Source: Mariniphaga sediminis (GTDB lineage: Bacteria; Bacteroidota; Bacteroidia; Bacteroidales; Prolixibacteraceae). Taken from it: DNA of 64,000 bases. Made by a program: the position numbers and the translations under genes. Under the pieces are notes generated by a model. The model was given only the letters and a program-made list of their open reading frames with translations. It was not told the origin of the DNA and made no database searches. Positions 14,533 to 31,229 of this stretch are shown here, piece by piece (within the stretch, counting starts at the first letter, position 1; the number at the start of each line of letters is the position of its first letter). Location: positions 62,001 through 126,000 of the forward strand of contig NZ_QWET01000008.1 of the NCBI RefSeq assembly GCF_003573545.1. The letters are read 5' to 3'.

Positions 14533-15306
14533 ATGACAATAAAAGATATAAAACGATACATCTTACTCCTGCCTGTGCTGGTTGTATTTCTTCAGGTTTC
14601 CGCCCAGGATTCCACCCAGGTACTTTGGGAAAAAGCCAATGCCTTTTACACAACCGAAGATTACCAACAGGCTGTTTCAATATATGAACAGATTTTAAAT
14701 TCAGGACAGGAGTCGGCCAAACTTTACTTCAACCTGGGAAACGCTTATTACAAATCCGGAGACATCAACCAGGCCATTTTGAATTTTGAACGTGCCAGGT
14801 TGCTGGCCCCGCAGGATCAGGATATTGCGTTCAATCTGGAACTGGCTAATCAATTTGTGGTGACTGAAATTGAAGCGCTGCCCCAGCCCTTTTTTAAGCG
14901 CTGGCGAAGCAGGGTCATTAACCTTTACCCGGCTGATTCGTGGGCAGCCATCAGTATAGGGGCGTTTGTTTTTTTCCTTGGCCTGCTGGGGTTGTTTATT
15001 TTTGGCCGCAGCACTTTTGTCAAAAAATTTTCATTCTGGGTTGGTATCCTGGCAGTCGTTATCTCCGGATTCACCTTTTCATTCGCTGCCAGGCAAAAAG
15101 AGAAAATAAACCAACGAAAACATGCCATTGTTTTTTGTCCTCGTGTAACTGTTAAAAGCGCCCCGACAGAAAACAGCACCGACCTGTTTTTGCTTTACGA
15201 AGGGGTAAAAGTGGAAATTTCCGACAGTTTAAGCACCTGGAGAGAAATAAGGCTCTCAGACGGGAACGTGGGCTGGCTGCCCGATTCATGTATTGTCAGG
15301 ATTTAA
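14533..15306 (+). CDS. batE: BatE, TPR and SH3-domain membrane protein
   Basis: A 257-residue protein. The signal peptide ends at VSAQ. Residues about 25-110 are tetratricopeptide repeats (FYTTEDYQQAVSIYEQIL, then LYFNLGNAYYKSGD). Two transmembrane helices lie near 137-158 and 168-185. Residues about 200-257 are a bacterial SH3 domain (TVKSAPTENS … WREIRLSDGNVGWLP). It closes the Bat operon. An NYN-domain gene follows 10 bases later and is probably on the same transcript. Confidence 0.93.
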   Translation: MTIKDIKRYILLLPVLVVFLQVSAQDSTQVLWEKANAFYTTEDYQQAVSIYEQILNSGQESAKLYFNLGNAYYKSGDINQAILNFERARLLAPQDQDIAFNLELANQFVVTEIEALPQPFFKRWRSRVINLYPADSWAAISIGAFVFFLGLLGLFIFGRSTFVKKFSFWVGILAVVISGFTFSFAARQKEKINQRKHAIVFCPRVTVKSAPTENSTDLFLLYEGVKVEISDSLSTWREIRLSDGNVGWLPDSCIVRI

Positions 15307-15316
15307 AAATAATAAT

Positions 15317-16063
15317 ATGGAAAGCGAATCCAGGCTTGCGGTACTCATAGACGGCGACAACATACCCTCCGCTTACGTGAAGGAAATGATGGAAGAAATT
15401 GCCAAGTACGGTAACCCTACCATTAAACGCATTTACGGCGACTGGACCAAACCGTTCCTCTCCAAATGGAAAAACCTGTTGCTCGAAAATGCCATCACAC
15501 CTATCCAACAGTATGGCTACACTTCAGGAAAAAATTCCACCGACTCAGCCATGATCATCGATGCGATGGACATTCTTTACAGCGGGAAAGTGGACGGCTT
15601 TTGCCTGGTTTCAAGCGACAGCGACTTTACCCGGCTGGCCACCCGCCTGAGGGAAGCAGGAATGAAAGTTTACGGAATCGGCGAGAAAAAAACACCCGAG
15701 CCGTTTATCGTCGCGTGCGACAAATTTATATACATCGAAATCCTGGCAAACCGGGCAAAAGAAAGCGAAAGCAGCACTACTCCCGACAAGCCGGCAAAAA
15801 AGCCACCGGTGGACAAAATTACCCCGAAAGTGATTCGGCTGATTGCTTCTACCATTTCCGATCTGGCCGATGACGACGGCTGGGCCTTTCTCGGCGATGT
15901 GGGCAGCTTGCTGCAAAAAAAGCAACCCAATTTCGACTCCCGGAACTACGGTTTTGAAAAACTCACTCCGCTCATAGATTCCATCGGGAAATTTGAAATT
16001 GACTTGCGGGACAGCAAACAGGGAAAATTCAAACTGATTTACGTGCGAAATAAAAAAAGGTAA
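15317..16063 (+). CDS. NYN-domain RNase-like protein with C-terminal LOTUS domain
   Basis: A 248-residue cytoplasmic protein. Residues about 5-140 are an NYN (PIN-like, DUF88/LabA) nuclease domain, with the acidic residues of the fold visible in LIDGDNI, in TDSAMIIDAMD and in SSDSDFTRLA. Residues about 168-248 match an OST-HTH/LOTUS RNA-binding domain (KVIRLIASTISDL, then WAFLGDVGSLLQKK). The pairing is known in bacterial relatives of Limkain-b1/MARF1 and suggests RNA cleavage or binding; the substrate is unknown. ATG 15317 is preferred over the frame-open codon at 15293, which lies inside batE. It may be read through from the Bat operon and ends before tandem hairpins. Confidence 0.85.
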   Translation: MESESRLAVLIDGDNIPSAYVKEMMEEIAKYGNPTIKRIYGDWTKPFLSKWKNLLLENAITPIQQYGYTSGKNSTDSAMIIDAMDILYSGKVDGFCLVSSDSDFTRLATRLREAGMKVYGIGEKKTPEPFIVACDKFIYIEILANRAKESESSTTPDKPAKKPPVDKITPKVIRLIASTISDLADDDGWAFLGDVGSLLQKKQPNFDSRNYGFEKLTPLIDSIGKFEIDLRDSKQGKFKLIYVRNKKR

Positions 16064-16161
16064 AATTTTCCTTATCCCTCGCATTCCAATATCCGGTTCA
16101 GATTAAAAGCCTAAAACCATATATTCAGAAAAGATAAGGCGTAATAACGGACTAATACCGT

Positions 16162-16218
16162 ATGCCTGCGGCATTTTTGGGCGTCCTGCGAGCATGCGGG
16201 GCCGCCCTGCATGTTTTT
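16162..16218 (+). terminator. Tandem hairpin terminators after the Bat/NYN operon
   Basis: Two hairpins in a row. The first, ATGCC-TGC-GGCAT (16162-16174), is followed by five T. The second is CATGCGGGG and GCCCTGCATG-type arms (16193-16201 and 16205-16213), giving a 9-bp stem with one G-T pair, a 3-base loop and five T (16214-16218). The second is a canonical Rho-independent terminator. Confidence 0.75.
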
Positions 16219-16264
16219 ACCCCTCCCTGTATCAATTTTGTGCTTCCCTGCGCTACAGAAACTC

Positions 16265-16408
16265 AAAAAAACAAAGCAGGACGACAAAAAACACCGCAGA
16301 AATGACTAAAAACGCTGCAGGGACACAAAAAACACTGCAGAAACCGGAAAAATCGCAACAGGAAGTCAAAAAAGCTTACAGGAGAACAAAAAAACGCTGC
16401 AGGGCTCG
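16265..16408. repeat. Seven degenerate 20-21-base repeats with phased A-tracts
   Basis: Seven copies of an A5-7 tract followed by a GCAGG-like core start at 16265, 16286, 16308, 16327, 16348, 16368 and 16388. The mean period is 20.5 bases, about two helix turns. The period is not a multiple of three across the array, so the open frame through it (16194-16430) is not a coding repeat. The following TTTTCAATTGAAAA (from 16409) is a perfect palindrome. Phased A-tracts bend DNA; a protein-binding or structural role is possible. The rest of the 16064-16615 gap holds the terminators upstream and a weak AGCAA/TTGCT hairpin near 16465. Confidence 0.6.
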
Positions 16409-16615
16409 TTTTCAATTGAAAAAAAATTGACAGTAAATGTTAGCTTTTGTCCTTTCCTAAGGTAGCAACTGTTGCTTTTTGCCAGGTTGAATTATGGCAG
16501 GGACCACCTGCATTCCTTTCATAATGTCAGGGCACGCCCCCCTTTAAGATAGTTACCTTAAAAGGATGGGCCGATCTCTTTTCATCCCCTTCACCACGAA
16601 TGGTATTAATCTGCT

Positions 16616-18046
16616 TTAATAACTTCGCCCGAGATCATTTGTCCTGACTTCTTCCAGCTTTGATTTCAGTTGTTTCCGGAATTGCTCAACAATACTATCG
16701 TAATCCGGATTTAACGCAAGATTTGTAAATTGTTGGGCATCATTCTCCATGTCATACAATTCTATTCCCGAACCCGCATCTTCATCGTATTGTATATAAG
16801 CCCACTTTTTAGTCCTGAGCAAGAATGATTTTCCACCCTGTGTTACCGTGAATGCCATGTCACGGAGTGAAATATCAGGGTTGTCAAAAACCGGGGCAAA
16901 ACTTTTCCCCTGGATATATTCGGGATATTTTAAACCGGCTAATTCAGCAACGGTAGGATATATATCGATCATTTCAAAAAATGAATCGTATACAGCCGGT
17001 TTTTTCCCCGGAACCTTAATAATCATTGGAACACGCACCGATTCTTCGTGCAGGCTTACTTTCATCCAGAAGTTGTGTTCACATAAATGAAAGCCATGGT
17101 CAGAGGTTAAAACGACAATCGTATTATCGTCCAACCCTTCTTCTTTTAATGTATGCAATACTTTGCCCACTTGTTTATCCATGTATGAAACGGAAGCATA
17201 ATAGGCTGCCACGGCCTTTTTCTCCTGGGTCTGGTTCATTTTAGCATTTACACTTGTCACATAATTTATTCCCCGCTCAGGGATATCATCCCAGTCTCCA
17301 TCTATTTTTTCCGGAAGCGTAATATTTTCGAAAGGATAGGGGGCAAAATATTCCCGGGGCGCAACAAAAGGCACATGTGGGCGCACAAAACCGACGGCAA
17401 GAAAGAATGGTTCATTCTTGTGGAGGCGAATTAATTCGCATGCTTTCTGTGCCGTTTTTCCGTCAGAATGCACCAGGTCATCTCCATCAGCTTTTACGAT
17501 GGTCATCACATTGCCTCCTTTAATTGGCAAAGAACCGTCAGGATTCCCCTGTACCAGCTCTCCGTCGCCCGGAGCTTTCCATTCGGGTCCTTTGCTATTG
17601 AATTTTTCGGTCCATGAAGCCGGGTCATCGGTTCCATCCGATCCTAATTCAATATCAATCGGAACTCCCATATGGAATATTTTACTTACACGTGCCGTAT
17701 AATATCCGTTTTCCCGAAAAAGCTGAGGCCAGGTTTTCCGCTCAGGACCAATATTTTCCCGACCGCTCACATATCCGTAAGTTTCTGTTGCATTTGGGTA
17801 ATACCCGGATAAAAAGGAAGCCCGCGAGGGACCGCAAACAGGATATTGACAATAAGCTCTTGTGAAAAGTACTCCTCCTGAAGCCAGCTTGTCAATATTG
17901 GGTGTCTGGCAGGTTTTATTTTCGTAAGCTGAAACAGCGGTTGCAGTCAAGTCATCAGATATTATAAAAAGCACATTGGGCTTCTTAACATCTTGAGTAA
18001 ATCCACTGACCAGCAACGGAATAAACAAAAACAATAATTTATACAT
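16616..18046 (-). CDS. Secreted sulfatase, iduronate-2-sulfatase-like (family S1)
   Basis: A 476-residue exported sulfatase. The signal peptide ends near SGFTQ. The metal-binding start is PNVLFIISDD. C71 in CGPSR is the residue turned into formylglycine, so an anaerobic-type maturase (anSME) elsewhere is needed. Further motifs are the HSDGK segment, GFVRPHVPF and TSDHGFHLCEHNFWMK, all typical of the iduronate-2-sulfatase-like branch. It is the last gene of the fecR-susC-susD operon, 107 bases after susD, which suggests a sulfated glycan as substrate. ATG 18046 (MYKLL) fits the signal peptide better than 18055. The exact sulfate position cannot be told. Confidence 0.93.
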   Translation of the reverse strand: MYKLLFLFIPLLVSGFTQDVKKPNVLFIISDDLTATAVSAYENKTCQTPNIDKLASGGVLFTRAYCQYPVCGPSRASFLSGYYPNATETYGYVSGRENIGPERKTWPQLFRENGYYTARVSKIFHMGVPIDIELGSDGTDDPASWTEKFNSKGPEWKAPGDGELVQGNPDGSLPIKGGNVMTIVKADGDDLVHSDGKTAQKACELIRLHKNEPFFLAVGFVRPHVPFVAPREYFAPYPFENITLPEKIDGDWDDIPERGINYVTSVNAKMNQTQEKKAVAAYYASVSYMDKQVGKVLHTLKEEGLDDNTIVVLTSDHGFHLCEHNFWMKVSLHEESVRVPMIIKVPGKKPAVYDSFFEMIDIYPTVAELAGLKYPEYIQGKSFAPVFDNPDISLRDMAFTVTQGGKSFLLRTKKWAYIQYDEDAGSGIELYDMENDAQQFTNLALNPDYDSIVEQFRKQLKSKLEEVRTNDLGRSY

Positions 18047-18152
18047 GGCTTCCATTTAATATGTATCAAAGAAACTGTTACGACTGTATAAAAAGACAAT
18101 CGTAACAGTTTAAAACATCTAATAGAAATTTTTGCAATAAGCGAGAATATTC

Positions 18153-19733
18153 TTACCAATTTGGATTCTGCACAAGATTAGGACTCAGTTCCCGCTCTTT
18201 CTGTGGTATTGGCCATAAATAATCCCTGTTCTCGTTAAACACTCTGTTATAACCCGTAATCTCCAAAGTTACAAGTGTTCCGTTGTCATCATAAGTCATA
18301 CCGTAAACATCCTCCGGCATCACTATGTGGGCTATCCTCCAACGCCTGAGGTCGAAAAGGCGTGTTCCCTCAAATGCCAGTTCAATGGTCCTTTCTTTCC
18401 GTACCAATTGCCTTAACTGCTCCTGAGTGAAGTTTTGTCCGATAGGAGGCATCTCCACACTTACCCTGGTGCGGACTTCATTAATAGCATCATACACCGA
18501 ATTATCTATTTCATTTAATTCAATTTTTGCTTCGGCATAGGTTAGAAGCACTTCGGCATAGCGCAATAAAATCAGGTTAATCCCTGAATTTCCAGGCGTA
18601 GTCATGTCATCGTCAGAGATGTATTTTTTTACGTTCCAACCGGTAGTGGTAGTATAAAGCGTCCCTCCCACCGGGTCTGTCGCATCCGGGTCACCCGGAA
18701 TTGAATTATATATTAATCCGTTGGGCAATACCATTCCTGTAACAAAGATGGATTGTTTCAACCTGGGATCCCTGTTTTCGTAAGGATTGTAAGGGTCAAA
18801 TCCACTTTCCGGATCGGTAATGGGCAACCCGTTGGTCATGTCGTACATGTCGACCAACTTTTTCGTAGGGACATAAACACTTCCAACACTCCCGGGCACT
18901 AAGCTCCAGGGACCTAGAGTATTGTAATAGTTATTTGAATAAACATCTTTGGCATACTGATGATCCAGGATTACTTCACTACAGTTTTCACCTGCGTACT
19001 GAAAAAGGTCTTCATACGAATTGTGCAAACTGTACACCCCAAGGTCCATCACTTGTTTGGCAGCAGCAGCTGATTCTGAATACCGCCCTGCATAGAGCAT
19101 TGCCCGGGCTTTTAATCCCAGGGCCGCACCTTTTATTACACGACCGGTATTATTGCCGGTTTGTGTTGTCGGCAATTCTCCGGCAGCGGTGGTTAATTCC
19201 TGCGAAACAAAGTCCCAGATAGTTGAGACCGGATCCCGGGTAATTGTTTTCCCTTCTTCAGCACTTATATTTGTAGTAACTAAAGGTACATCTCCGTAAA
19301 GCATTACAAGTTTCATATAATGAAATGCACGGATGGTGCGCACTTCTCCTTTTAGCTGACTAATTAGCTGGGCATTGTCAGTTTCCACGCCATCGATGTT
19401 TTCAAAAAAGTAATTTGCACGCTGGATTGCCGTATAGGCATCGTCCCATTCATCAAGGTAGCGTGAAAAAGTGGCATCCGAATTTCCAGCTTCAATAATT
19501 GAATTATTTTCAAAAAGCCGGTTGGTATGGAACACGTCGGTTATGCCATCGTAAGCAAAAAGTTTGTTTCCGTCTAAGGTTGGATAAAGTGCATTTGCCC
19601 CCGTTATGGCATCATCCTCCGTGTGCCAGTATATTTCTGTTGATATCCTGTCATCAGGAATAGTTTCCAGTAAATTTTCCTGACAAGAAACCAGAAAGGC
19701 AGCTATTATTATCGATAAAATAATCTTTTTCAT
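18153..19733 (-). CDS. SusD/RagB-family glycan-binding lipoprotein
   Basis: A 526-residue surface lipoprotein; the lipobox is LVSC with cysteine near residue 17. The N-terminal SusD-like domain starts with the family pattern LLETIPDDRISTEIYW. The fold is built on TPR-like helices (for example AIQRANYFFENID and EVRTIRAFHYMKLVMLYGDVPL). The C-terminal RagB signature is RKERTIELAFEGTRLFDLRRW near 455, and the protein ends with ELSPNLVQNPNW. It caps the SusC barrel encoded 12 bases upstream and delivers glycan to it. Ligand specificity cannot be read from sequence. Confidence 0.96.
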   Translation of the reverse strand: MKKIILSIIIAAFLVSCQENLLETIPDDRISTEIYWHTEDDAITGANALYPTLDGNKLFAYDGITDVFHTNRLFENNSIIEAGNSDATFSRYLDEWDDAYTAIQRANYFFENIDGVETDNAQLISQLKGEVRTIRAFHYMKLVMLYGDVPLVTTNISAEEGKTITRDPVSTIWDFVSQELTTAAGELPTTQTGNNTGRVIKGAALGLKARAMLYAGRYSESAAAAKQVMDLGVYSLHNSYEDLFQYAGENCSEVILDHQYAKDVYSNNYYNTLGPWSLVPGSVGSVYVPTKKLVDMYDMTNGLPITDPESGFDPYNPYENRDPRLKQSIFVTGMVLPNGLIYNSIPGDPDATDPVGGTLYTTTTGWNVKKYISDDDMTTPGNSGINLILLRYAEVLLTYAEAKIELNEIDNSVYDAINEVRTRVSVEMPPIGQNFTQEQLRQLVRKERTIELAFEGTRLFDLRRWRIAHIVMPEDVYGMTYDDNGTLVTLEITGYNRVFNENRDYLWPIPQKERELSPNLVQNPNW

Positions 19734-19745
19734 TTCGTGTAAGTT

Positions 19746-22700
19746 TTAAAAATTCAACTTTAAACCAACAGTGTATATTCCGACCTGCGGATAATAATTT
19801 GCCCTTCCCGGTGGCATTTCAGGATCTAAATTCCATTCATTCAGTTTCGAAAGCGTAATCAGGTCAGTTGCATTTATATAGACCTGTGCTCTGCTGATTG
19901 GCAGTTTATTCAGCAAACTTGCCGGTACATTGTAAGAAATCATGGTATTTTTTAACCGGATATAATCGGCATCTATTGTCAGTAAATCAGACGCCTGCAA
20001 ATTACGCAGATTCGATTTGATGGGCCTTGGCCATCGGGCATCGCGGTTGTTTTCGGTCCAGTAATCGGCATATACTTTATGGGTAAAAGCCTCGTATGTT
20101 GCCTGGTGTCCCAATCCTCCAGCTACCTGTGTGGTGTGCCCGCTGGCTCCCTGCCACTGCATGTATAACTCAAAGTTTTTATAGCTGAAATTCATGGTTG
20201 AACCATACGTATATATCGGAAAACTATAACCCAGGAATGCGCGGTCGTCCGGGGTAATTTTATCATCATCATTTAAATTCAGGTATTTCACATCACCCGG
20301 TTTGGTATTTGCCTGATAAGTCGGGTAGTTTGCAATCTCCTCTTCAGTTTGGAAAAATCCGTCGGTAAGGTATCCCCACAAACTGTTCATCGCCATCCCT
20401 TCCTTTATGATAAAGGTCTGGTTTGCTCCACCACCTTCAATATACGGACCTGTTCCAAGCAGGTCTTCCACAACGTTTTTATTCCTGCTGATATTTAATC
20501 CCAGATTGTATTTAAATACATTTCCACCGCGGAAATCTAAAGATGCTTCCCATCCTTTATTCCTGACAGTCCCGGCATTTTGGAAAGATGCGTCTAAACC
20601 TACCGTAGCCGGGATAGGTAATTCCAGAAGGATATCTTTGGTAAGTTTATTATAGTAATCAAACGAGAAATTCATTCGGTTACTTAATAATCCCAAATCA
20701 ATACCAATATCTAATTGTTCCGTTTTTTCCCAGGTAAGGTTTTCATTGACAATCCGGGTAGGAGCATAGCCCACAGCCGGGTTTTCAAAGAAGGCATAAT
20801 CGATGTTCGTAAGTGCCGGGTAAAACTCGTAAAGGTCGATTGCCTGGTTCCCGGTAATCCCCCAGGAGGCACGTAATTTAAATTCATTGATTGTTTCAGA
20901 AAGGCTGCCCCAGAAATTTTCCTGGGAAATCCTCCATGCGCCGGAGAACGATGGGAAAAAGGCATATCGTTTTGCTGAACTAAACCTGGAAGAACCATCG
21001 TATCTGCCATTTATCTCAATAAAATATTTTTTCGCATAATTATAATTCAGTCGTCCAAAATAAGACCTTAACCCGTATCCCCTGTTATAACCTTCATTAT
21101 CTTTATTGTCGTTCGAGCCTGAATCCAAAGACTGAATATCGTTGTTGTAAAAATCCTGCCGGAAACCTTCCAGGTATTTTTGTTTATTATCAATAGTGGA
21201 ATACCCTAGAAGCAGATTCACATTGTTATTCCCCAAAGATTTATGATAATTGAGCAAATGATTAAGGGTATATTCCCTGAAACTTGTGCGGTTTTCCTCA
21301 AGAGAATTGATGGGGACCTGGCGTACGCGGCCTGTAACTGGGTCTTCATTCCTGTATTTGTTTTTATAGGCAGAAACCTCAGTCAGGGAATTTCTTGCCC
21401 CATATTCCAGGGTGTATTTCAGGTCGCTGAAAATTTGATAATCCGCTTTTATTTTCCCAATAAGATAATCGTTCTTTCTTTTCCTTAATCCTGATAATTC
21501 AGCAAAAATCAGCGGGTTATTATTTTGCGGACCAAGTCCATATTCTCCGGTTTTATACTGAGGATAAGAAAATTTTGTGGCATGGAGCATATAGTTAAAT
21601 ACATTAAAAACTCCATCGTAGGGCTGCCTGTCTTCCGAAGACCTGAAGTTAATATCAAAAGAAACTTTCAGCTTTTCAGATACATTAAAATCGGTATTGA
21701 TCCTGACTTCATTTGTTTTATCTGAAAAATTACTTACAATACCTTCAATATCCTGGTACCTCAAGCTGGCCCTGGCCTGCATAAAGTCGGTACCACCACT
21801 GAACGAAAGGGTATGGTTTTGCTGGGGTGCATCTTTTAACATCACTCCTTTATCGAACCAAGGAAATGGAAGCGGGTATTTTTCGCGATCGGTAGCATTA
21901 ACATATTCATTGATAAATTCTTCAGAATATGTTGGTGAAGAACCAGCATTAATCCGGGCAACATTTTCCAATTCGAAATAACTCCTCAGGTCAAGGTGCT
22001 CGGGTCGGTTCAATGCCCGCTGGAAACCATAATACCCGTGGTAGGAAACATTTACGTCTCCTTTCTCTCCTCTTCGGGTGGTTATCAGTATAACCCCGTT
22101 GGCAGCACGGGATCCGTATATGGCTGTTGACGAAGCATCTTTAAGTACAGAAATGCTTGCAATGTCATCAGGGTTTATGTCGCTCATACGTTGTTCAATG
22201 CCGTCAACAATAATCAACGGGTCCCTTTTTGTCTCATCGTCTCCTAACGTTGTAAGCCCCCTGATACGGATATTGATTTCTGAGTCACCAGGTCTCCCTC
22301 CATTATCTATGACAACAACCCCGGGAGCCATCCCCTGCAATGACTGACCGATGTGCGATACCGGCTTTTTCACGATTTCGTCTCCATCTATCTGGGCTAC
22401 AGAGTTTGTTAAACTTATTCTCTCCTGAACGGCGTACCCCACAGCAATAACTTCTTCCAGGCCAATGGTTTCTTCTTCCATGCTCACATTAATTGTCAGC
22501 TGATCGCCTACAACCACTTCCTGTTTCTTCATCCCAACAAATGAAAATACCAATGTGGCGTCCTCTGGAATATTGGTAAGGGTATATTCGCCTTCAGCAT
22601 TTGTTACCGTTCCCCTTGAGGTACCCTTTATTACCACAGCGACTCCAGGCAAAGGCTGGCTTCGGGTATCTTCTACTTTACCCGAAACGGTTCGTTGGGC

Positions 22701-23114
22701 CTGTTGCCCGCGAGTGTAACTATCTGCATTTCCGGGCCGGTAATTTTCTCCGGGAAAAAGGATGATGTGTTTGTCTATAATCCGGTAATCTGTTTCATTT
22801 CCGAAAAGCTGGTTAAGTACCGTTTCAATGGTTTCGTCTTTAACAATGATATTTACCTTTCGGTCAGCATCAATCTTGTTATTGTCATACATAAACGAGA
22901 ACTCCGAGTTATACTCGATATGCTGCAATACATTCTTAATACTTACATCTCTCAAGGCAAAGGTCATCCTGGCACTTTGTGCATAACTTTTTTCCGCTAT
23001 ACTGTTCAGGAGACCAAAACCACAGATAAGTACTAAAATTAGTTTCATCGTTAGTAACATTTTTAAAGCGGGGGAGAAAACATCAATCCCCCGGGTTCTT
23101 TTACAATTTTTCAT
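19746..23114 (-). CDS. SusC/RagA TonB-dependent transporter with STN signalling domain
   Basis: A 1122-residue outer-membrane importer. Domains in order: an extended signal peptide (1-45), an STN/secretin-type domain (about 50-110) that talks to an anti-sigma factor, a carboxypeptidase-like domain (about 143-222, VSGKVEDTRSQPLPGV), a plug (about 232-345, with IYGSRAANGVILITTRRGE), and the barrel, ending in VGLKLNF. The STN domain and the fecR gene upstream mark a transporter that senses its own substrate. ATG 23114 gives the RTRG-type extended leader common to STN-SusC proteins. A -7 box on the opposite strand overlaps this start codon. Confidence 0.96.
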   Translation of the reverse strand: MKNCKRTRGIDVFSPALKMLLTMKLILVLICGFGLLNSIAEKSYAQSARMTFALRDVSIKNVLQHIEYNSEFSFMYDNNKIDADRKVNIIVKDETIETVLNQLFGNETDYRIIDKHIILFPGENYRPGNADSYTRGQQAQRTVSGKVEDTRSQPLPGVAVVIKGTSRGTVTNAEGEYTLTNIPEDATLVFSFVGMKKQEVVVGDQLTINVSMEEETIGLEEVIAVGYAVQERISLTNSVAQIDGDEIVKKPVSHIGQSLQGMAPGVVVIDNGGRPGDSEINIRIRGLTTLGDDETKRDPLIIVDGIEQRMSDINPDDIASISVLKDASSTAIYGSRAANGVILITTRRGEKGDVNVSYHGYYGFQRALNRPEHLDLRSYFELENVARINAGSSPTYSEEFINEYVNATDREKYPLPFPWFDKGVMLKDAPQQNHTLSFSGGTDFMQARASLRYQDIEGIVSNFSDKTNEVRINTDFNVSEKLKVSFDINFRSSEDRQPYDGVFNVFNYMLHATKFSYPQYKTGEYGLGPQNNNPLIFAELSGLRKRKNDYLIGKIKADYQIFSDLKYTLEYGARNSLTEVSAYKNKYRNEDPVTGRVRQVPINSLEENRTSFREYTLNHLLNYHKSLGNNNVNLLLGYSTIDNKQKYLEGFRQDFYNNDIQSLDSGSNDNKDNEGYNRGYGLRSYFGRLNYNYAKKYFIEINGRYDGSSRFSSAKRYAFFPSFSGAWRISQENFWGSLSETINEFKLRASWGITGNQAIDLYEFYPALTNIDYAFFENPAVGYAPTRIVNENLTWEKTEQLDIGIDLGLLSNRMNFSFDYYNKLTKDILLELPIPATVGLDASFQNAGTVRNKGWEASLDFRGGNVFKYNLGLNISRNKNVVEDLLGTGPYIEGGGANQTFIIKEGMAMNSLWGYLTDGFFQTEEEIANYPTYQANTKPGDVKYLNLNDDDKITPDDRAFLGYSFPIYTYGSTMNFSYKNFELYMQWQGASGHTTQVAGGLGHQATYEAFTHKVYADYWTENNRDARWPRPIKSNLRNLQASDLLTIDADYIRLKNTMISYNVPASLLNKLPISRAQVYINATDLITLSKLNEWNLDPEMPPGRANYYPQVGIYTVGLKLNF

Positions 23115-23240
23115 ATCTTTGTTTTGGTTTTTGCAGTTCCCAGATAAAACACAATCGGCAAATTTGTTCCTTCCGGGATGCTGCGATTAAACAATTAATT
23201 TTATAGGACAGGCTTGCCCGTCCGGCAAGTCTGTTTTTTT
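23114..23240 (+). ncRNA. Candidate antisense sRNA opposite the susC 5' leader
   Basis: On the plus strand, against the operon, a perfect -7 box TATCTTTG (23114-23121) is followed about 115 bases later by a canonical Rho-independent terminator. No open frame of note lies between. A transcript starting near 23128 would cover the whole leader of susC and end between susC and fecR. Antisense sRNAs in this position are known for polysaccharide loci of Bacteroides (DonS in B. fragilis is the named case). No convincing -33 TTG is visible, so the promoter is only half supported. Expression is not shown by sequence. Confidence 0.5.
23208..23240 (+). terminator. Rho-independent terminator on the plus strand between susC and fecR
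   Basis: Arms ACAGGCTTGCC (23208-23218) and GGCAAGTCTGT (23224-23234) form 11 pairs including one G-T, with a 5-base loop, then seven T (23234-23240). On the minus strand, along which fecR and susC are read, it has no T tail, so it does not serve the operon. Confidence 0.8.
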
Positions 23241-23280
23241 AATAATTAGTCAGTTAGTTCTCCCTCATAGGCATTTTGTT

Positions 23281-24267
23281 TTAATTCGAATATTTTATTT
23301 TTACATCTTTCCCGCGAATCTCATAAATGATCGGGGTCATTACTTTCAGCATCTCAAGCATTTCGCGGAATGATTCGGTCTTGACCCTGAAAGTATAACT
23401 ATGCTTTCCCTTCATCTCACTATCTAAGGCAATATCAACTCCATACCACCGCTCAAGATATTTTACAACTTCCTCCAGCGGGGTATTATCAAAAATCAAT
23501 TCGTTATTCTTCCATGCACTCACCAAGTCAGGATTATTTTCGGTATAGGTAATCCTATTTGTCTCTTTATTCAGCGAAGCTTGTTCCCCCCGCGTGAGCC
23601 GGCGGAGTTCTTTCGACTTGTCAGACACGCCTACGATTCCTTCCATCACAGTTATTTCCTCAACACGATCATCCTCATAATTTTTTATATTGAATGAAGT
23701 TCCGTAAACTTTCACATCAAGAATTCCGGTTTTCACCCTGAAAAATTTTGAGCTGTCTTCTTTTACCTCAAAAAATGCTTCCCCCTTCAATATTACTTCT
23801 CTTTCTTTCACATTAAAATCTCCCTTGTATTTCAGAGAGGAACCGGAATTCAGCCAAACGTATGAACTATCGGGTAATATGACCATCGACTTTTGTCCCA
23901 TCGGAGTCACTATTTCGGTATATTGCTGCAAATTAGTTCTATTCCCGGCATTAAAAAGCCAAACAACAGATAGCCCCACCAATAAAATAATGACAGCTGC
24001 TGCAACATATTTGAATTTCTCAAACAACTTTTTCACAGGAGTACCAGAGGTGATTCGTTGTTCAATTTTCCTCCATGCTATTTCTTTATTGGGTTCCAGA
24101 GCTTGGGGAACTGAGGAAGTTACCGTGTAAACATTTTGGATTTCAGTAAGTACATTTTGATTTGTCTCATCTTTTTCCAGCCAATTGTTGAGTTCGGCCA
24201 ATTCTTCCGGGCTGGTCTCTTTCCGGAGATATTTAGTGATAATATGCCACGGTATACTTTTTTCCAT
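23281..24267 (-). CDS. FecR-family anti-sigma factor
   Basis: A 328-residue inner-membrane regulator from ATG 24267. Residues about 1-75 are the cytoplasmic sigma-binding part (YLRKETSPEELAELNNWLEKD). One transmembrane helix lies near residues 84-105 (YVAAAVIILLVGLSVVWLF). The periplasmic FecR domain follows (about 120-220, with FEVKEDSSKFFRVKTGILDVKVYGTSFNI). The C-terminal part (DUF4974-like, about 250-328) contains YLERWYGVDIAL and ends with KDVKIKYSN. It would pass the signal from the STN domain of SusC to an ECF sigma factor. No sigma gene lies beside it; the upstream neighbour is divergent tsaC. The partner must be encoded elsewhere. Confidence 0.93.
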   Translation of the reverse strand: MEKSIPWHIITKYLRKETSPEELAELNNWLEKDETNQNVLTEIQNVYTVTSSVPQALEPNKEIAWRKIEQRITSGTPVKKLFEKFKYVAAAVIILLVGLSVVWLFNAGNRTNLQQYTEIVTPMGQKSMVILPDSSYVWLNSGSSLKYKGDFNVKEREVILKGEAFFEVKEDSSKFFRVKTGILDVKVYGTSFNIKNYEDDRVEEITVMEGIVGVSDKSKELRRLTRGEQASLNKETNRITYTENNPDLVSAWKNNELIFDNTPLEEVVKYLERWYGVDIALDSEMKGKHSYTFRVKTESFREMLEMLKVMTPIIYEIRGKDVKIKYSN

Positions 24268-24476
24268 TCTTTTTCCCTTATAATTATAAGGCACCTAACT
24301 TTCAAAATACCCCTATCCAACAATTCTTTTTTTTCAATCCTTCATCTTCAGGCTATTTCTCAAGTACCACCATAAAAAATGGTGAGACTTTTGTTCAAAA
24401 GAATATGCCAAAGCACCATGAGAAATACGGGAAAATTCAATGAAAGTTATAATTTTACCTCCTCAAACTTTAATTT

Positions 24477-25091
24477 ATGTTATTACGGCTCTACAATGAG
24501 AACCCCAATCCCCGGGATATTCGCAAAGTGGTTGATGTGCTTCGGGAAGGAGGAATCATTATCTACCCTACCGATACGGTTTATGGTTTGGGATGCGATA
24601 TTACCAACCCCAAAGCGGTGGATAAGGTAGCCCGGTTCAAAGGGATTAAAATTGAAAAAGCCAATTTTTCCTTTATTTGCAGTGACCTGAGCCACCTGTC
24701 TGACTACACCAAGCCTATCTCAAATACTGTGTTTAAACTGATGAGAAAAAACCTGCCCGGCCCGTTTACTTTTATTCTTGAGGCCAATAACAATGTACCC
24801 AGATACTTCAAAGGCAAGAAAAAAACTGTGGGTATCCGTGTTCCTGACAACAACATTATTCGCGATATTATTTACGAACTGGGAAATCCCATTCTTTCCA
24901 CTTCCATTCGTGACGAGGATGAAATCCTGGAATACACCACCGATCCGGAACTGATTTATGAAAAATACCAGGACATTGCCGATTTAGTTATTGACGGGGG
25001 ACATGGAGAACTGGTTCCGTCTACCGTAATTGACTGTACAAACGATGAAATTACCATTGTAAGGGAAGGAAAGGGGATTCTGGAATATTAG
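24477..25091 (+). CDS. tsaC: L-threonylcarbamoyladenylate synthase (TsaC/YciO/YrdC family)
   Basis: A 204-residue enzyme that makes threonylcarbamoyl-AMP from threonine, bicarbonate and ATP for the t6A37 modification of tRNA. The N-terminal motif GGIIIYPTDTVYGLGCDI and the following FKGIKIEKANFSFIC match the family, as does LPGPFTFIL. Length is that of the single-domain YrdC/TsaC type without the Sua5 extension, close to the YciO branch. The exact branch (TsaC or YciO) is uncertain. It is divergent from fecR and convergent with trkH. Confidence 0.88.
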   Translation: MLLRLYNENPNPRDIRKVVDVLREGGIIIYPTDTVYGLGCDITNPKAVDKVARFKGIKIEKANFSFICSDLSHLSDYTKPISNTVFKLMRKNLPGPFTFILEANNNVPRYFKGKKKTVGIRVPDNNIIRDIIYELGNPILSTSIRDEDEILEYTTDPELIYEKYQDIADLVIDGGHGELVPSTVIDCTNDEITIVREGKGILEY

Positions 25092-25220
25092 ATTGTGCCC
25101 TCTGTCTGATCTGCCTATTCCTCGTGCCTCCTTCAGTTCCGGAAATAAAACGACACATAGATTTCCCTGTCGAAGCTAAGGGTATAAAAAAACAGACCCA
25201 TTTAAAATATTTTCATGACA

Positions 25221-26666
25221 TTACTCTCTCCAGAATGAAGGAGAAAAGATAACCAACACGGTGAAAAGTTCCAGTCGCCCCAGCAACATTAGAAACGATA
25301 AGAACCATTTTCCGGCAGGGCTGATATGAAGAAAGTTTTCGGCAGGGCCGACATTGCCCAAACCGGGACCGATATTACCCAGACTTGTTGCTACCGCTCC
25401 CATGGCCGATTCCATATCAGGTTCAATAAATGAAAAAACAATAGTACTTGCACCAAAAATCACAAAATAAAACATAAAAAACGCCAGCACATTGTTAATG
25501 ATTTTTGCATCGACCGACTGCCTGTTAAATTTTACAGGGATAACTGCATGTGGATGGATTATTCTGCGCAGTTCATAGTAGCTGTTTTTCAAAAGTAAAA
25601 CGATACGCATAATTTTAATGCTTCCACCCGTAGATCCTGCTGATCCACCAAAGAAAAACAGTCCAAAAAGCAGAATGGTCAGAACAGGAGCCCAGGTTAA
25701 ATAATCCACCGTAGCAAAGCCGGTGGTAGTCATTATAGAGACCACCTGAAAAAGAGCATCCCTGAAAGCATTCTCCACACCCAACTGGGTAGTAATCAGC
25801 AACCCCGCGCTTATTACAAGGGTGAATCCAAGCACAAACAACCCGTAATATTTAAACTCTTCGTCATGCAATACTCTTTTAAAGTTGCCGCGTAAGGCCA
25901 TGTAGGAAAGCGTAAAATTAGTGCCCGCCAAAAACATAAAAAGAATGATAACATACTGAATAAAGGGCGACGACCAATAAGCAATGCTTGCCTGTTTTGT
26001 CGAGAAGCCTCCGGTGGCCATGGTTGTAAATGAATGGCAAACAGCATCAAAAAGGGTCATTCCCCCAATCCACAACAAAAGCGTTTCTGCCACCGTAAAC
26101 CCCAGGTAGATCACCCACAGCGTTTTGGCCGTTTGCCTGATTCTCGGGCTAATACGATCGGGTGTGGGCCCCGGAACTTCGGCTATAAACAACTGCATAC
26201 CCCCAATACCAAAAACAGGCAAAATAGCCAGCGACAAAACAATAATTCCCATTCCACCCAGCCATTGGGTAATACTTCTCCAAAACAGGATACCGTGAGG
26301 AAGTGATTCGATATCTGCCAAAATAGAAGAGCCTGTGGTAGTAAATCCTGATATCGTTTCAAAAAAGGCATTGGTAAAGTCAGGGATTGCCCCGCTAATA
26401 ACATACGGAAGGCTTCCGAAAAAAGAAAAAACGAGCCACACCAGCGAAACAATTATGTACCCCTCGCGCCGCCCGATGTCTCGCCGGGCATTCCGTGTTA
26501 AATAAACGATGGTTCCCCCTAACAGAATGTTAATACCTGAAGAAATAAGGAAAGCCGATTGATCGTATTCATTATACAAAAGGGCAATACCAAATGCCAG
26601 TAACATGGCAACACCTTCCACAAAAAGCAAAAATCCCAAAACTCTTAAGACAATCTTGACATTCAT
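25221..26666 (-). CDS. trkH: Potassium uptake protein TrkH
   Basis: A 481-residue inner-membrane potassium transporter. About ten membrane helices are seen, with pore-loop repeats such as TTTGSSILADIE, TTMATGGFSTK, TTTGFATVDYLTW and SLGNIGPGLGNVGP. The glycines in these loops form the selectivity filter. Length is normal. It lies 27 bases after trkA on the same strand, forming the two-gene Trk system. Confidence 0.95.
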   Translation of the reverse strand: MNVKIVLRVLGFLLFVEGVAMLLAFGIALLYNEYDQSAFLISSGINILLGGTIVYLTRNARRDIGRREGYIIVSLVWLVFSFFGSLPYVISGAIPDFTNAFFETISGFTTTGSSILADIESLPHGILFWRSITQWLGGMGIIVLSLAILPVFGIGGMQLFIAEVPGPTPDRISPRIRQTAKTLWVIYLGFTVAETLLLWIGGMTLFDAVCHSFTTMATGGFSTKQASIAYWSSPFIQYVIILFMFLAGTNFTLSYMALRGNFKRVLHDEEFKYYGLFVLGFTLVISAGLLITTQLGVENAFRDALFQVVSIMTTTGFATVDYLTWAPVLTILLFGLFFFGGSAGSTGGSIKIMRIVLLLKNSYYELRRIIHPHAVIPVKFNRQSVDAKIINNVLAFFMFYFVIFGASTIVFSFIEPDMESAMGAVATSLGNIGPGLGNVGPAENFLHISPAGKWFLSFLMLLGRLELFTVLVIFSPSFWRE

Positions 26667-26693
26667 AGCGATTCGCCCAAACTACAGGCGCAA

Positions 26694-28028
26694 TTATTTA
26701 AAGAATTTTTCCAATTTTTTAATTCCCGATGGTAAGGTAAATACCACCACTTTATCCCCCTCCTGAATTTGAGTATCCCCATTGGCCACATAACCATTTT
26801 CGCCCCGGATAATTCCCCCGATTTTAGCCTCGTCGGGAAATCCCAGATCCCGGATGGGCTTTTGCGTAATTTTGGCATCGGCCTTGGCAATAAATTCAAA
26901 CACCTCGGCATCAGAGGCTGTGAGGCATTTTACCTTCGAAATAGCCGCATTAAGGGTAAACCGGTATATATAACTTGCAGCAATCAATTTCTTATTTACG
27001 ATACTCCCGATATTCATGCTTTCTGACAGCCCCATAAATGCAAGGTTTTCCACTTCTGCAACGGTTCTCCTCACACCCATTGTTTTTGCCAGATGGCATC
27101 CCAGAATATTTGTTTCTGAATTTCCGGTAGTTGCTACCACTGCATCCATTTTTTCCAGGCCTTCGTCTTTCAGCAATTTCAGGTTCCGGCAATCACCATT
27201 TATTACCAGTGCATTGGCATACCTTTCGGCAACCTGTTCGCATTTTTCAATATTTTCCTCAATGACTTTTATACGATACTGGTCGCCCAATTTTTCGATA
27301 GATTTTTGCGCAATCCGGCTCCCCCCCAAAAACATGATATTTTTTACTTCGAAGGTCTTTTTTGCCGTGAGTTCAAAAACCCGCTGCTGCTCCATTCGGG
27401 TGGTAATAAAAAACACAATATCCCCATTCATTATAAAGTCGGAACCTTTGGGAATAATGGTTTTACTTTCGCGGTTAATGGCTACCACCAGAATATGTTC
27501 GTTCTCCCGGGCCAGTTCCTCAAATGTTTTGTTGAGAATGGGAGCATCCTCCCGCACTTTAATTCCCAGCAGCAACAGTTTCCCGTGCGAAAATTCAATC
27601 AACTGACGGGTACCGGTTTGTTTCACCGAAGCCACAATCTCTTTGGCAGCCAGGCTTTCAGGATAGATCAGTTCATGAATGCCAAGGTTATTCAACTTGG
27701 CCCGGTACTGCGGCATCAGGTACTCCGAGTTATTAATCCGGGCAATCGTACGCCCCACTCCCAGGTACGAAGCCATGGAACAAGCCAACACATTTCGCTC
27801 TTCAAACGGTGTAACAGCAATAAATAAGTCGGCTTTACTCAAACCCGTTTGTTTTAAATCCTGAAAAGAATGAGCCGAGCCGGGTACTGTTAATAAATCA
27901 ACTTCTTCGCTTATTTTAGAGAGTTTCTCCGGAGAATCATCCATTAAAACAATGTCATGATCTTCATTGCTCAGCATCCGTGCCAAATGGGTTCCAACTT
28001 CTCCCGCTCCTGCAATTACAACTTTCAT
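26694..28028 (-). CDS. trkA: Trk potassium system regulatory subunit TrkA
   Basis: A 444-residue cytoplasmic gating subunit with two halves. Each half has a nucleotide-binding RCK-N domain (MKVVIAGAGEVGTHLARML at the N-terminus and IMFLGGSRIAQKSIEKL near residue 230) and a RCK-C domain. The second Rossmann motif is GGSRIA rather than GxGxxG, which is usual for the second half. It binds NAD(H) or ATP/ADP and opens TrkH, encoded next. Confidence 0.95.
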   Translation of the reverse strand: MKVVIAGAGEVGTHLARMLSNEDHDIVLMDDSPEKLSKISEEVDLLTVPGSAHSFQDLKQTGLSKADLFIAVTPFEERNVLACSMASYLGVGRTIARINNSEYLMPQYRAKLNNLGIHELIYPESLAAKEIVASVKQTGTRQLIEFSHGKLLLLGIKVREDAPILNKTFEELARENEHILVVAINRESKTIIPKGSDFIMNGDIVFFITTRMEQQRVFELTAKKTFEVKNIMFLGGSRIAQKSIEKLGDQYRIKVIEENIEKCEQVAERYANALVINGDCRNLKLLKDEGLEKMDAVVATTGNSETNILGCHLAKTMGVRRTVAEVENLAFMGLSESMNIGSIVNKKLIAASYIYRFTLNAAISKVKCLTASDAEVFEFIAKADAKITQKPIRDLGFPDEAKIGGIIRGENGYVANGDTQIQEGDKVVVFTLPSGIKKLEKFFK

Positions 28029-28136
28029 CTCTAATCAACCTTAAATAAAATACGCTGCAAAATAAACCATTAACAATCAATTTACCAGCATTCCAGTCTA
28101 AAATAGAATGTTTTTAAAATTGGTGATCGATTAAAG

Positions 28137-30164
28137 TTACCATTTTTCTCGGAATGCACCCTTCTTACACAGGTAAAAAATATCATGCTTCTCAGGCGTT
28201 TCATTCTCCCAAAACTTTCGCGTAGAAACAATAGTATTTCCCTGAGAATGAATCCATTTCACATCATTTCCGGTATAAGGCCCTATGATAATATCAGCCA
28301 GTATTCGTTGATCCGGAACCCACCTCTTTTCTCCGGAAAGCCAGATAACGCGATTGTTAAATAAAAGCAAATCATTTTTTAAATAAATGGTAGAATCACT
28401 GTACGTTTGACCAGAAAGCAGATAAACCGGTGGGTCCAATCTTAATTTCCGGACAGTATTCTTGACCAGGTTTGCGGCAATTCCCCTTTCCGGAATTATT
28501 TCTTCGGAAACAATGTAGTTTCTTTTTCCCGAAACAAGATGCACAACCGTTTGCTCGGGATAATTATATACAATGAGTTCTTTTCTGAAAAGACCGGTTG
28601 TTTTAAAAATGAGCGAAACAGTAACAAAAAGAAAAAAGCAAATCAATGCTCCCTTAAAATACCGCTTACTTCGGGTTTCCATAAAAAGGAAAATTGAGAT
28701 GAATATCCCGAAAACAAAAGCCAATTCCCACCCCGAAAATGACAACTCAATAACCGAAAGAGGCATGTTTTCTATCATTTCAAGAAAATGAATAACAAAC
28801 CATAATACAAAATCAATAATACACACAATTACAACAGGAAAAAACGGAACCCAACTAAAAACAAGCAATGCCATTCCGAGGGGAATAAGCAAAAAAGCCG
28901 CAGGAATGACTAACAAGTTTGAAATCCAGAAATAACTGGGGAACTGGCCAAAATAAAAAACAGAGAAAGGGAATGTGGCAATTTGTGCTGCCACCGAAAC
29001 AGTAAGAAGACTCCAAAACCAGCGAATTATTTTACTTTCAAATCGAATTATTTTTTCAAACCGGGGTTGTAAAAAAATAATGCCATACACAGCAGCGTAT
29101 GAAAGCTGAAAACCGGCTTCGAACAAATTGTTGGGATTCACAAGCAACAGGAAAAAGGCCGAGGCAGCCAATGTATTGTATATATTATATTGCCTTTTCA
29201 GGTTTTGCCCGACTACCACGAAGGTAAACATGGTGGCTGCCCGCTTTACAGAAGGGGAAAGCCCGGTAATAAAGGCAAATCCCCAAAGCGCCATCACCAC
29301 GAGTAATACAAAAATGAACCGGCCCGTTTTTTGCTTTTTCAAAATTCCAAACACAAAAGAAAGCACCAGAAAAACAATACCTACATGAAGCCCGGAAACG
29401 GCTAACACGTGCATAGCACCTGCCGACGCAAAAATCCTTTTTGTCTCCGGATCGAGGCCCCGCTTGTAGCCGAGTGTGAGAGCCGAAAGAACCTCCAACT
29501 CTTTTTCTCCCAGGTTCTGCTGCCGGTAGATTCCAAGCAGGTACATCCTTATCTTCTCGGCTACAATGGAGAATGAAAAAGTGGGTTGTAATTCTGTTTT
29601 TATCCAGCTATCTGCAGGAAGGTAAACCTGCCGGTATATTTTTTTCCTTTCCAGATAAGTTTTATAGTCGAATTCGTAGGGATTGTTGAGGTTTTTTACC
29701 CACTGCGGAGACTCACTGAAAAGAATGGTTTCGCCCGGTTCCAAATTTTTGGCTTTGTCTGTTTTAGCAAACCACACCATTATTTTTTCATGGACAGGCA
29801 AGACAGAATCGTTCCGAAAAAAAGCATTCAACTTCAATACTGAACCATAAGAATTGGGTTTCTCCTGCACAATTTCCAGAACGGTGGCAGAAAACTTTCC
29901 ATCATTCTGAAAAACGGGTTCCCGGTTATACATACCATAAACCAACATTCCAATCACCACAAAAACCACATGTACACCTGCGCCAAAAGAAATAGCTAAC
30001 TGAAAACGGTATCGGTAATTTATCCAGGAAAGAATTCCCAGAGCCAGGACAATTACTCCCAACAAAAGAATAGAATCAAAATGAAATACTGATCCCAAAA
30101 GAATCCCGGCAATCAAGGCAGCCGAGATGCGTAAAAAAGGTATTTTCTGAACCGTTTTATCCAA
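28137..30164 (-). CDS. ComEC/Rec2-family DNA uptake membrane protein
   Basis: A 675-residue polytopic membrane protein of the ComEC/Rec2 family, which carries single-stranded DNA across the inner membrane during transformation. The N-terminal DUF4131 region includes LNAFFRNDSVLPVHEKIMVWF. The central Competence domain carries the signature AGAMHVLAVSGLHVGIV and GLSPSVKRAATMF. The C-terminal part is short and lacks the HxHxDH metallo-beta-lactamase motif of long ComEC proteins. This short form is common in Bacteroidota. No other competence genes are in the window. Confidence 0.92.
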   Translation of the reverse strand: MDKTVQKIPFLRISAALIAGILLGSVFHFDSILLLGVIVLALGILSWINYRYRFQLAISFGAGVHVVFVVIGMLVYGMYNREPVFQNDGKFSATVLEIVQEKPNSYGSVLKLNAFFRNDSVLPVHEKIMVWFAKTDKAKNLEPGETILFSESPQWVKNLNNPYEFDYKTYLERKKIYRQVYLPADSWIKTELQPTFSFSIVAEKIRMYLLGIYRQQNLGEKELEVLSALTLGYKRGLDPETKRIFASAGAMHVLAVSGLHVGIVFLVLSFVFGILKKQKTGRFIFVLLVVMALWGFAFITGLSPSVKRAATMFTFVVVGQNLKRQYNIYNTLAASAFFLLLVNPNNLFEAGFQLSYAAVYGIIFLQPRFEKIIRFESKIIRWFWSLLTVSVAAQIATFPFSVFYFGQFPSYFWISNLLVIPAAFLLIPLGMALLVFSWVPFFPVVIVCIIDFVLWFVIHFLEMIENMPLSVIELSFSGWELAFVFGIFISIFLFMETRSKRYFKGALICFFLFVTVSLIFKTTGLFRKELIVYNYPEQTVVHLVSGKRNYIVSEEIIPERGIAANLVKNTVRKLRLDPPVYLLSGQTYSDSTIYLKNDLLLFNNRVIWLSGEKRWVPDQRILADIIIGPYTGNDVKWIHSQGNTIVSTRKFWENETPEKHDIFYLCKKGAFREKW

Positions 30165-30243
30165 TATCTTCCCGCGATTTGGGAGTGTACATATTATCCC
30201 CCATTATAAAATACACTCTGAAACGGGAAAGTAATCGAAAAGG

Positions 30244-30807
30244 TTACATTGACTTCACGGGAGTTTTAATACGATAGTGAGGTTGTACTTTCCCTGTCGC
30301 AATATTGCGGAGTTTACCTTTCAGTAACCTTTTTTTCAATGGCGAAAGGTAGTCGATAAAAAGGATACCATCGAGGTGATCGTATTCATGCTGGAAAATA
30401 CGACCTGCATATCCTTTCAAAACTTCCTCATGCAACGTAAAATTTTCGTCGAAATATTTCACCCTGACGATGTCGGGTCGTTTTACATCCTCCCTTATTT
30501 CCGGCAGACTCAGGCAACCTTCATTCATCACCCACTCCTCTCCCGATTTTTCAATAATTTCAGGATTGATAAAAACTTTTTTGAAATCTTTAAGTTCCGG
30601 TTCCTCGTCTGCACCAGACGTGGCATCCACCACAAATATCCTTATCGACATTCCTACCTGTGGGGCGGCAAGACCCACTCCATCTGAATGATACATGGTT
30701 TCCCACATATTTTCAATAATCTCTTCCAACCCATCGTGATCTTTTTCTATTGGTTTGGCTTTCTTCCTCAGCAACGGGTCGCCATAAACTGTAACCGGAT
30801 ATTTCAT
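30244..30807 (-). CDS. def: Peptide deformylase
   Basis: A 187-residue metalloenzyme that removes the formyl group from new proteins. All three motifs are present: GVGLAAPQVG (motif I), EGCLSLP with the metal-binding cysteine (motif II), and HEYDHLDG with the HExxH-type site (motif III, HEYDH). Length is normal. Its ATG overlaps the ruvX stop (ATGA), so the two are translationally coupled. Confidence 0.97.
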   Translation of the reverse strand: MKYPVTVYGDPLLRKKAKPIEKDHDGLEEIIENMWETMYHSDGVGLAAPQVGMSIRIFVVDATSGADEEPELKDFKKVFINPEIIEKSGEEWVMNEGCLSLPEIREDVKRPDIVRVKYFDENFTLHEEVLKGYAGRIFQHEYDHLDGILFIDYLSPLKKRLLKGKLRNIATGKVQPHYRIKTPVKSM

Positions 30808-31229
30808 TTATTCTTATTTCGTTTTTGTTCCATATACCCCTGTAAAATGATGGTGGCGCTAATGGCATCAACCATAGCTTTGTCCCGCCTTGCCATTTTT
30901 TTCAATCCTCCGTCAATCATTGTCTGGAAAGCCATCTTCGATGTAAATCTTTCATCCGCAATTTCAAGATGCATATCAGGATACTGTATCCTAAATTTCT
31001 TTATAAAAGGATTAATGTAAGCAACAGCTTCCGAAGCCTGGTTGTTCATTTGCAAAGGATATCCTACCACCACTTCATCAACCTGTTCGTTCTGAAAAAA
31101 GGTTTGAAGAAAATCCCAGATGGTGTGTGTTGCTACTGTTGCCAATTTGTTCGCAATTATCTTATAAGGGTCGGAAACGGCCAGGCCAACCCGCTTTTTC
31201 CCATAATCTATCGCTAAAATTCTACCCAT
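30804..31229 (-). CDS. ruvX: Holliday junction resolvase-like protein RuvX (YqgF)
   Basis: A 141-residue RNase H-fold protein. YqgF is needed for processing of pre-16S rRNA ends in several bacteria and has been proposed as a resolvase. The first catalytic aspartate is in LAIDYGKKRVGLAVSD, the glutamate region is VVGYPLQMNN, and IADERFTSKMA and KAMVDAISATIIL follow. The ATG at 31229 gives the typical MGRILAIDYG start; a longer frame upstream has no family similarity. Confidence 0.94.
   Translation of the reverse strand: MGRILAIDYGKKRVGLAVSDPYKIIANKLATVATHTIWDFLQTFFQNEQVDEVVVGYPLQMNNQASEAVAYINPFIKKFRIQYPDMHLEIADERFTSKMAFQTMIDGGLKKMARRDKAMVDAISATIILQGYMEQKRNKNK

Follow-up and report, generated by a model that had tools for sequence, protein, structure and literature searches.

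Organisation of the locus

The stretch of DNA analysed here, referred to as the window, comprises 64,000 nucleotides of the Mariniphaga sediminis genome (contig NZ_QWET01000008.1). Within it a glycan locus is encoded on the minus strand, where a fecR-type anti-sigma gene is followed by a susC gene, with a susD-like and a sulfatase-like gene beyond, and the gap between fecR and susC contains a series of smaller elements on both strands:

16616-18055, minus strand: sulfatase-like gene of the locus, named from its sequence by eye
18153-19733, minus strand: susD-like gene of the same locus, so named by eye on its position and sequence
19746-23114, minus strand: susC, a TonB-dependent transporter gene (TIGR04056) with an N-terminal extension
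23114-23121, plus strand: candidate antisense -7 promoter box TATCTTTG, which overlaps the susC start codon at its A
23115-23280, minus strand: fecR-susC gap with the susC sense leader, the presumed antisense target
23126-23240, plus strand: predicted antisense RNA of about 113-115 nt, with its start placed at 23126-23128 and its end at the T run
23131-23186, plus strand: 5' hairpin of the predicted antisense RNA, from folding
23205-23240, plus strand: intrinsic terminator, consisting of a hairpin (core 23208-23234) and a T run (23234-23240)
23254-23268, minus strand: start-stop mini-ORF, ATG AGG GAG AAC TAA, with the motif GCCTATG at 23266-23272
23281-24267, minus strand: fecR-type anti-sigma gene, with the FecR C-terminal domain PF16344

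No sigma gene was found beside fecR in the window (24268-24476 region). An ECF sigma gene lies near fecR in M. anaerophila, at the seven other M. sediminis fecR loci that were checked and at 26 of 28 related loci. The best M. sediminis match to the M. anaerophila sigma factor has 63% identity, the next best having 40%, and is encoded on another contig (C1, L259:1501-2094) with no fecR within its 3.6 kb locus; on sequence similarity this sigma factor is likely to be the partner of the window FecR. Its gene adjoins chloride-channel-like and asparaginase-like genes, both named by eye. With respect to an ECF promoter for susC, a dyad was sought in 95 gaps and none was found, only the hairpin arms and A-rich words standing out.

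A promoter-like box at the susC start codon

The initial annotation placed a TATCTTTG box at 23114-23121 on the plus strand, over the susC start, and the letters confirm this position, with the first T of the box lying directly opposite the A of the susC ATG. The primary-sigma promoter combines a -7 box, TAnnTTTG, with a -33 element, TTTG. The first of these is present at 23114-23121 and the second is unseen, there being no -33 box by eye in the window and none conserved in a profile of 99 gaps. A -33 motif is likewise not identified in Flavobacterium johnsoniae (PMC7366714). What, then, distinguishes such a box from a chance occurrence? Taken alone the 8-mer is found four times in the window against 3.0 expected by chance, and because it is no commoner than that the case for an antisense RNA rests on conservation.

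Conservation was assessed in 102 fecR-susC gaps, 68 from M. sediminis and 34 from M. anaerophila, with the fecR gaps of the other two same-genus genomes left out of the gap counts. The M. sediminis sample is the window plus 67 gaps drawn from 80 FecR matches, a number that includes second gene pieces and duplicates on contigs C4 and C12, and the M. anaerophila sample is the window-locus ortholog plus 33 of 39 FecR matches. Gaps that were too short number three of the 102 for the terminator count (99 used) and five for the pairing, mini-ORF and register counts (97 used). On contigs C4 and C12 of the M. sediminis assembly (G000) a number of FecR and SusC matches occur twice with the same score, which may reflect assembly redundancy or true duplication.

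The box in the form TAnnTTT[G/A] is fused to the susC ATG in 64 of the 68 M. sediminis gaps and 31 of the 34 from M. anaerophila, and its strict TTTG form in 48/68 and 24/34, respectively, counts that are biased somewhat towards the register since, where the first ATG was without a box, the start was re-chosen among in-frame ATGs by the presence of the box. With starts re-chosen in the same way, TAnnTTT[G/A] is found at the exact ATG register in 95 of the 97 gaps used from both genomes; the 172 other gap offsets yield 31 matches all together, and control ATGs have the box in register in 8 of 2943 cases. The 99-gap profile made without any re-choice has TA at 100 and 94%, TTT at 94-97%, and G at 72% or A at 24%. 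Within the window, susC is the only one of 48 ORFs of at least 150 codons to have the box in register. At a fixed distance 3' of the box (offset 12) a G is found in 53% of the 99 gaps, and this is read as the probable start site of the RNA, which would be 23126 in the window.

The terminator and the predicted RNA

The hairpin core reads ACAGGCTTGCC-CGTCC-GGCAAGTCTGT at 23208-23234 and runs into the T run at 23234-23240, such that the earlier description of an 11-bp hairpin with seven T holds when one G-U pair is counted. This G-U pair on the plus strand corresponds to C-A on the minus strand and, as had also been noted, the T tail belongs to the plus strand only, none being seen by eye on the minus strand. 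Sigma-70-type promoter scans are not applicable to this phylum, and the automatic terminator scan that forms part of the one used here lacks the hairpin at 23208-23234 from its list.

Because the box ends before the RNA start, the RNA would cover the leader to about 12 bases before the ATG and not the ATG itself. The predicted RNA, taken as 23128-23240, folds at -37.1 kcal/mol with a z of -4.87, a value that none of 200 shuffles equals, and the orthologous stretch of M. anaerophila has a folding z of -3.42. A hairpin similar to the 5' hairpin (23131-23186) is predicted in this ortholog, and the 5' hairpin is missing from the consensus structure of the 22-locus alignment described below. When window positions 15000-32000 were compared with Rfam no family reached its gathering score, the two matches up to E 1 both falling below it, and a sub-threshold match to cyano_het_sRNA (23.5 bits) overlaps the terminator.

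Antisense terminators are present in 83 of 99 usable gaps and sense terminators in 14 of 99; taken over all 102 gaps, the antisense ones number 56/68 in M. sediminis and 27/34 in M. anaerophila. Box and antisense terminator are found together in 55 of 68 gaps in M. sediminis and 27 of 34 in M. anaerophila; across the 102 gaps, 13 have the box without a terminator by the criterion used and six have neither. A model built from the 22 rows of the alignment (R1) finds the window at 94 bits and gives at most 26 bits at 63 other M. sediminis gap loci, and as these matches are weak the other gap RNAs lie outside the R1 sequence family at that sensitivity. The recurrence of the arrangement at most such loci of the bacterium suggests a general brake or insulator. 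Neither the fusion of the box to the start codon at most of these loci nor the mini-ORF described below figured in the initial annotation.

Which strand is under selection?

Inverted repeats scored in a strand-neutral way are present in 86 of 97 gaps, with the same score in 74 of 291 mononucleotide-shuffled gaps, and they contain 138 G-T pairs versus 23 A-C pairs. Without the outer three pairs there remain 116 and 20, respectively (p 2e-13 relative to the composition-expected share). The T run is on the antisense 3' side in 68 of 86, versus an A run on the opposite side in 3 of 86. Among 19 ortholog pairs the stems contain 162 unchanged pairs, 22 broken and 18 gapped; antisense pairing is kept through 11 two-sided and 20 one-sided changes, and sense-only pairing through seven one-sided changes and one two-sided. 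The excess of G-T over A-C pairs in the stems means that it is the antisense strand that is selected, and the antisense RNA is most likely the molecule on which selection acts.

It could be argued that no antisense RNA matters at these loci, the inverted repeat being a DNA operator and the box a by-product of the translation-start sequence CAAAnnTATG. The 8-mer is indeed common by itself and in this phylum start codons commonly sit in A-rich contexts, but the register is rare at other starts and at other ATGs, G-T pairs far exceed A-C pairs in the stems, the T run is one-sided and structures slid along the alignment (see below) pair poorly. The explanation as a whole is thus highly improbable. 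The operator reading of the hairpin, taken by itself, is rejected by the G-T/A-C test.

Conservation among relatives

Comparison of 60 genomes found that, of three same-genus genomes, only M. anaerophila DSM 26910 (Prolixibacteraceae) matches over the region. Here the fecR-susC gap keeps both box and terminator: the ortholog box reads TACTTTTG, and the letters of the terminator stem differ yet the stem and T run still form. The RNA body shares identical blocks of 11 and 15 bases with that of the window, and seven of 14 compared stem pairs are broken in the alignment, though both sequences fold. From a wider family search with two FecR sequences over 140 genomes, 28 further loci were analysed; these are FecR-search matches and may include loci that are not true orthologs, and they have the box TAnnTTT[G/A] at the ATG in 24, an antisense terminator in 26 and the mini-ORF in 15. 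The initial annotation had named loss of the terminator in relatives that keep the locus as a finding that would count against it; the terminator is retained in M. anaerophila and at these 26 of 28 loci. In 25 of the 26 the terminator is 117-129 bases from the ATG, the start of the other being miscalled. In three relatives (L272-L274) the box at the susC start is altered to CATACTCTTTTA or CATACTCTTATA and the mini-ORF is retained; two of the three keep the terminator by the criterion used.

An alignment of 22 rows was made from the window, M. anaerophila and 20 of the 28 family loci, with the eight that have another type of terminator omitted. In it 97.7% of the cells of the terminator stem are paired, versus 29.5-56.3% after sliding the stem along by one to three columns. 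None of 500 shuffles, which ignore relatedness, attains the covariation score, and two-sided changes at five of 12 pairs are matched by 19 of 500, the weakest of five measures. These observations also bear upon the notion that the antisense promoter is inconsequential and the terminator merely shields fecR from antisense transcription. Many bacterial antisense RNAs may be noise (PMC7366714), but at these loci the box keeps to a single exact register in 95 of 97 gaps and the terminator shows covariation across the family. These two features imply selection on both promoter and terminator, and make transcriptional noise an improbable account.

The proposal of an antisense RNA of about 113 bases between fecR and susC, now predicted at about 113-115 nt, is strongly supported because of the one-register box, the covarying terminator, the strand-specific G-U signal and the recurrence at most gaps. 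Its conservation, register, structure and strand are matters of direct observation; its transcription, its start site and the use of the box as a promoter are what we infer from them. It is very probable that the strand opposite susC gives rise to a short RNA, starting at the susC start codon.

The breadth of the arrangement was surveyed with loci as returned by the search, a non-random sample, using TAnnTTT[G/A] as the box and no re-choice of start. Matches that were cut off or had no SusC-like neighbour were dropped (family 3/29, order 16/29, class 5/30, phylum 12/26), and the remaining gaps gave the following counts:

Family, 26 gaps: terminator 21, box 19, both 15, sense terminator 2
Order, 13 gaps: terminator 7, box 6, both 5, sense terminator 4
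Four same-class genomes, 25 gaps: terminator 19, box 14, both 10, sense terminator 2
Elsewhere in the phylum, 14 gaps (one of them M. sediminis's own): terminator 3, box 1, both 1, sense terminator 1

A start-stop mini-ORF on the sense strand

Between fecR and the antisense terminator hairpin the sense strand contains a further element. The most over-represented sense-strand 8-mer in the gaps of the two genomes is TGCCTATG, which is found in 28 of 95 gaps versus 0.1 expected. The related motif GC[C/T]TATG occurs 40 times within the gaps, always in the sense orientation and never in the antisense one, and eight times in 219 kb of flanks (both strands). At 39 of the 40 sites the ATG is followed by an in-frame stop within five codons, the other two frames closing in 12/40 and 13/40. 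These strict sites have a median of one codon after the ATG. A looser motif gives a mini-ORF in 49 of 97 gaps, 47 of them with ATG. In the window the stop of the mini-ORF (23254-23268) precedes the hairpin, called on the sense strand, by 17 nt, and the M. anaerophila ortholog has a mini-ORF too. Stops of all three kinds occur, and even orthologous mini-ORFs mostly have different codons, with no conserved peptide among the gaps of the two genomes.

The position of the mini-ORF is related to that of the fecR stop. Of the gaps in which a terminator was called, 41 bear the motif; 35 of these have 30-84 nt between fecR stop and hairpin, and in 29 of the 41 the mini-ORF ATG precedes the hairpin by 22-33 nt. 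A further 38 are motif-free, and in 30 of them it is the fecR stop that precedes the hairpin closely, by 0-15 nt. This dichotomy is partly built in, as short gaps have no room for the motif. A freer figure comes from gaps with at least 30 nt from fecR stop to hairpin, where the motif is present in 37 and absent in six.

Beyond the two genomes the mini-ORF is found in 5/26 gaps in the family, 3/13 in the order, 4/25 in the same-class genomes and 0/13 elsewhere, and nine of these 12 outside sites close within five codons in frame, with four and two doing so in the other frames. A whole-genome count of TGCCTATGN{0,6}TRA gave no enrichment (38 versus 53 for a reversed control), and by our own reading 16 of 24 in-frame and one of 14 out-of-frame occurrences fall within fecR-susC gaps or at their edges. 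The outcome of the frame test argues against a mere DNA motif, although the mini-ORF may result from selection just to close a chance ORF. A literature search covering listings and the openings of abstracts found no earlier report of a start-stop mini-ORF of this kind, and we would call it a new part with a putative function.

Taken together, these elements could form a standard boundary cassette at ECF/FecR glycan loci, made up of a start-codon antisense promoter, an antisense terminator and a sense stop before the hairpin, the latter supplied by fecR or by a mini-ORF (GCCTATG, 0-7 codons, stop). It would be the starting and stopping of a ribosome, rather than any peptide, that sets the antisense separation of sigma-fecR from susC transcripts. 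We put this forward as a tentative model, to which we give slightly less than even odds.

A brake on susC or an insulator?

Our preferred interpretation, with a probability of about 0.75, is that the window encodes a DonS-like cis-encoded antisense RNA that holds susC low and is overridden by ECF-driven sense transcription. The housekeeping sigma factor would read the -7 box overlapping the susC start codon, and the RNA would start at around 23126 on the plus strand, cross the susC leader backwards and stop at the 23240 terminator before reaching fecR. Any sense transcript entering susC would have a leader complementary to this RNA, and pairing could lower susC through blocked initiation or cleavage of the duplex, with polymerase occupying the start codon also keeping susC low. 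Upon release of the ECF sigma factor by the glycan, strong sense transcription would override the antisense RNA. Repression of susC is proposed by analogy with DonS.

Is the RNA necessarily a brake? It may instead act mainly to cut or silence read-through from sigma-fecR, leaving susC to answer to its own ECF promoter, in which case a boundary would be marked by the hairpin together with the stop codon at its base. Here the SusC genes of M. sediminis without an adjacent fecR match are informative. Eleven such controls were drawn from 56 scored of 132 candidates; nine of the 11 are without the box, and with the terminator included two have both features (L167, L171), eight lack both and the remaining one has a weak hairpin. 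That just two of the 11 have both features fits an insulator, as do the tendency of a stop codon to sit near the hairpin and the rarity of sense terminators between fecR and susC (14/99), which means that read-through would need another stop. Against it, those two SusC genes carry both features without an adjacent fecR match, and the likely sigma gene of the window locus is on another contig, such that read-through here would come from fecR alone. An insulator appears rather unlikely, and the sequence by itself cannot separate it from a brake. For the favoured model of a DonS-like brake a genetic handle is available: most bases of the box are outside the ATG, and hence the box can be changed with the ATG kept, making antisense and protein effects separable.

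Comparison with known systems

In leader-peptide antisense systems of plasmids, for example CopA/tap of R1, a terminated antisense RNA covers a leader and a small ORF is close by. The window locus differs in that the antisense RNA lies between its mini-ORF and the start codon, and in that the mini-ORFs have a median of one codon after the ATG (strict sites) and encode no conserved peptide.

The closest likeness is to DonS. DonS has an intrinsic terminator at its 3' end, as is found at the window locus, and is encoded beside the anti-sigma gene of a sigma/anti-sigma controlled locus; in the window fecR adjoins susC and the likely cognate sigma gene is on another contig. DonS and the other PUL antisense RNAs are divergent and antisense to a susC homolog, 78-128 nt in length and located in polysaccharide loci (PMC7366714, PMC10994844). 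The RNA predicted here is opposite the 5' region of susC and from its inferred start would be about 113-115 nt long, and the comparison with DonS made in the initial annotation thus fits in both position and size (78-128 nt; PMC7366714). Such RNAs have been described at 15 loci in B. fragilis and at 10, later 32, in B. thetaiotaomicron (PMC9723704, PMC7366714, PMC10994844). They were found by transcriptomics in gut Bacteroides, some of those in B. thetaiotaomicron correlate positively with their own locus, and functional work is called for to establish what they do (PMC10994844).

FopS and GibS of B. thetaiotaomicron are also small RNAs with an effect on PULs, and the site at which FopS binds susC mRNAs is close to the start codon. 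Members of the FopS group have a common seed, through base pairing they repress several PULs (PMC11697453), whereas the window RNA is encoded opposite its own presumed target.

The difference from Bacteroides DonS relates to the host, which is a member of the Prolixibacteraceae, to the number of RNAs, with 55 to 64 predicted per genome versus 32 RNA-annotated in B. thetaiotaomicron, and possibly to the fusion of the box to the start codon, a trait observed here at most such loci of the two Mariniphaga genomes. This is a DonS-like antisense architecture in another family, known here from DNA sequence alone. PUL antisense RNAs can therefore be predicted from DNA, with at least 55 in one genome of another family, and since the prediction follows from a promoter in a fixed start-codon register the role of the class becomes testable by comparison, the same predictions also exposing a companion element in the start-stop mini-ORF.
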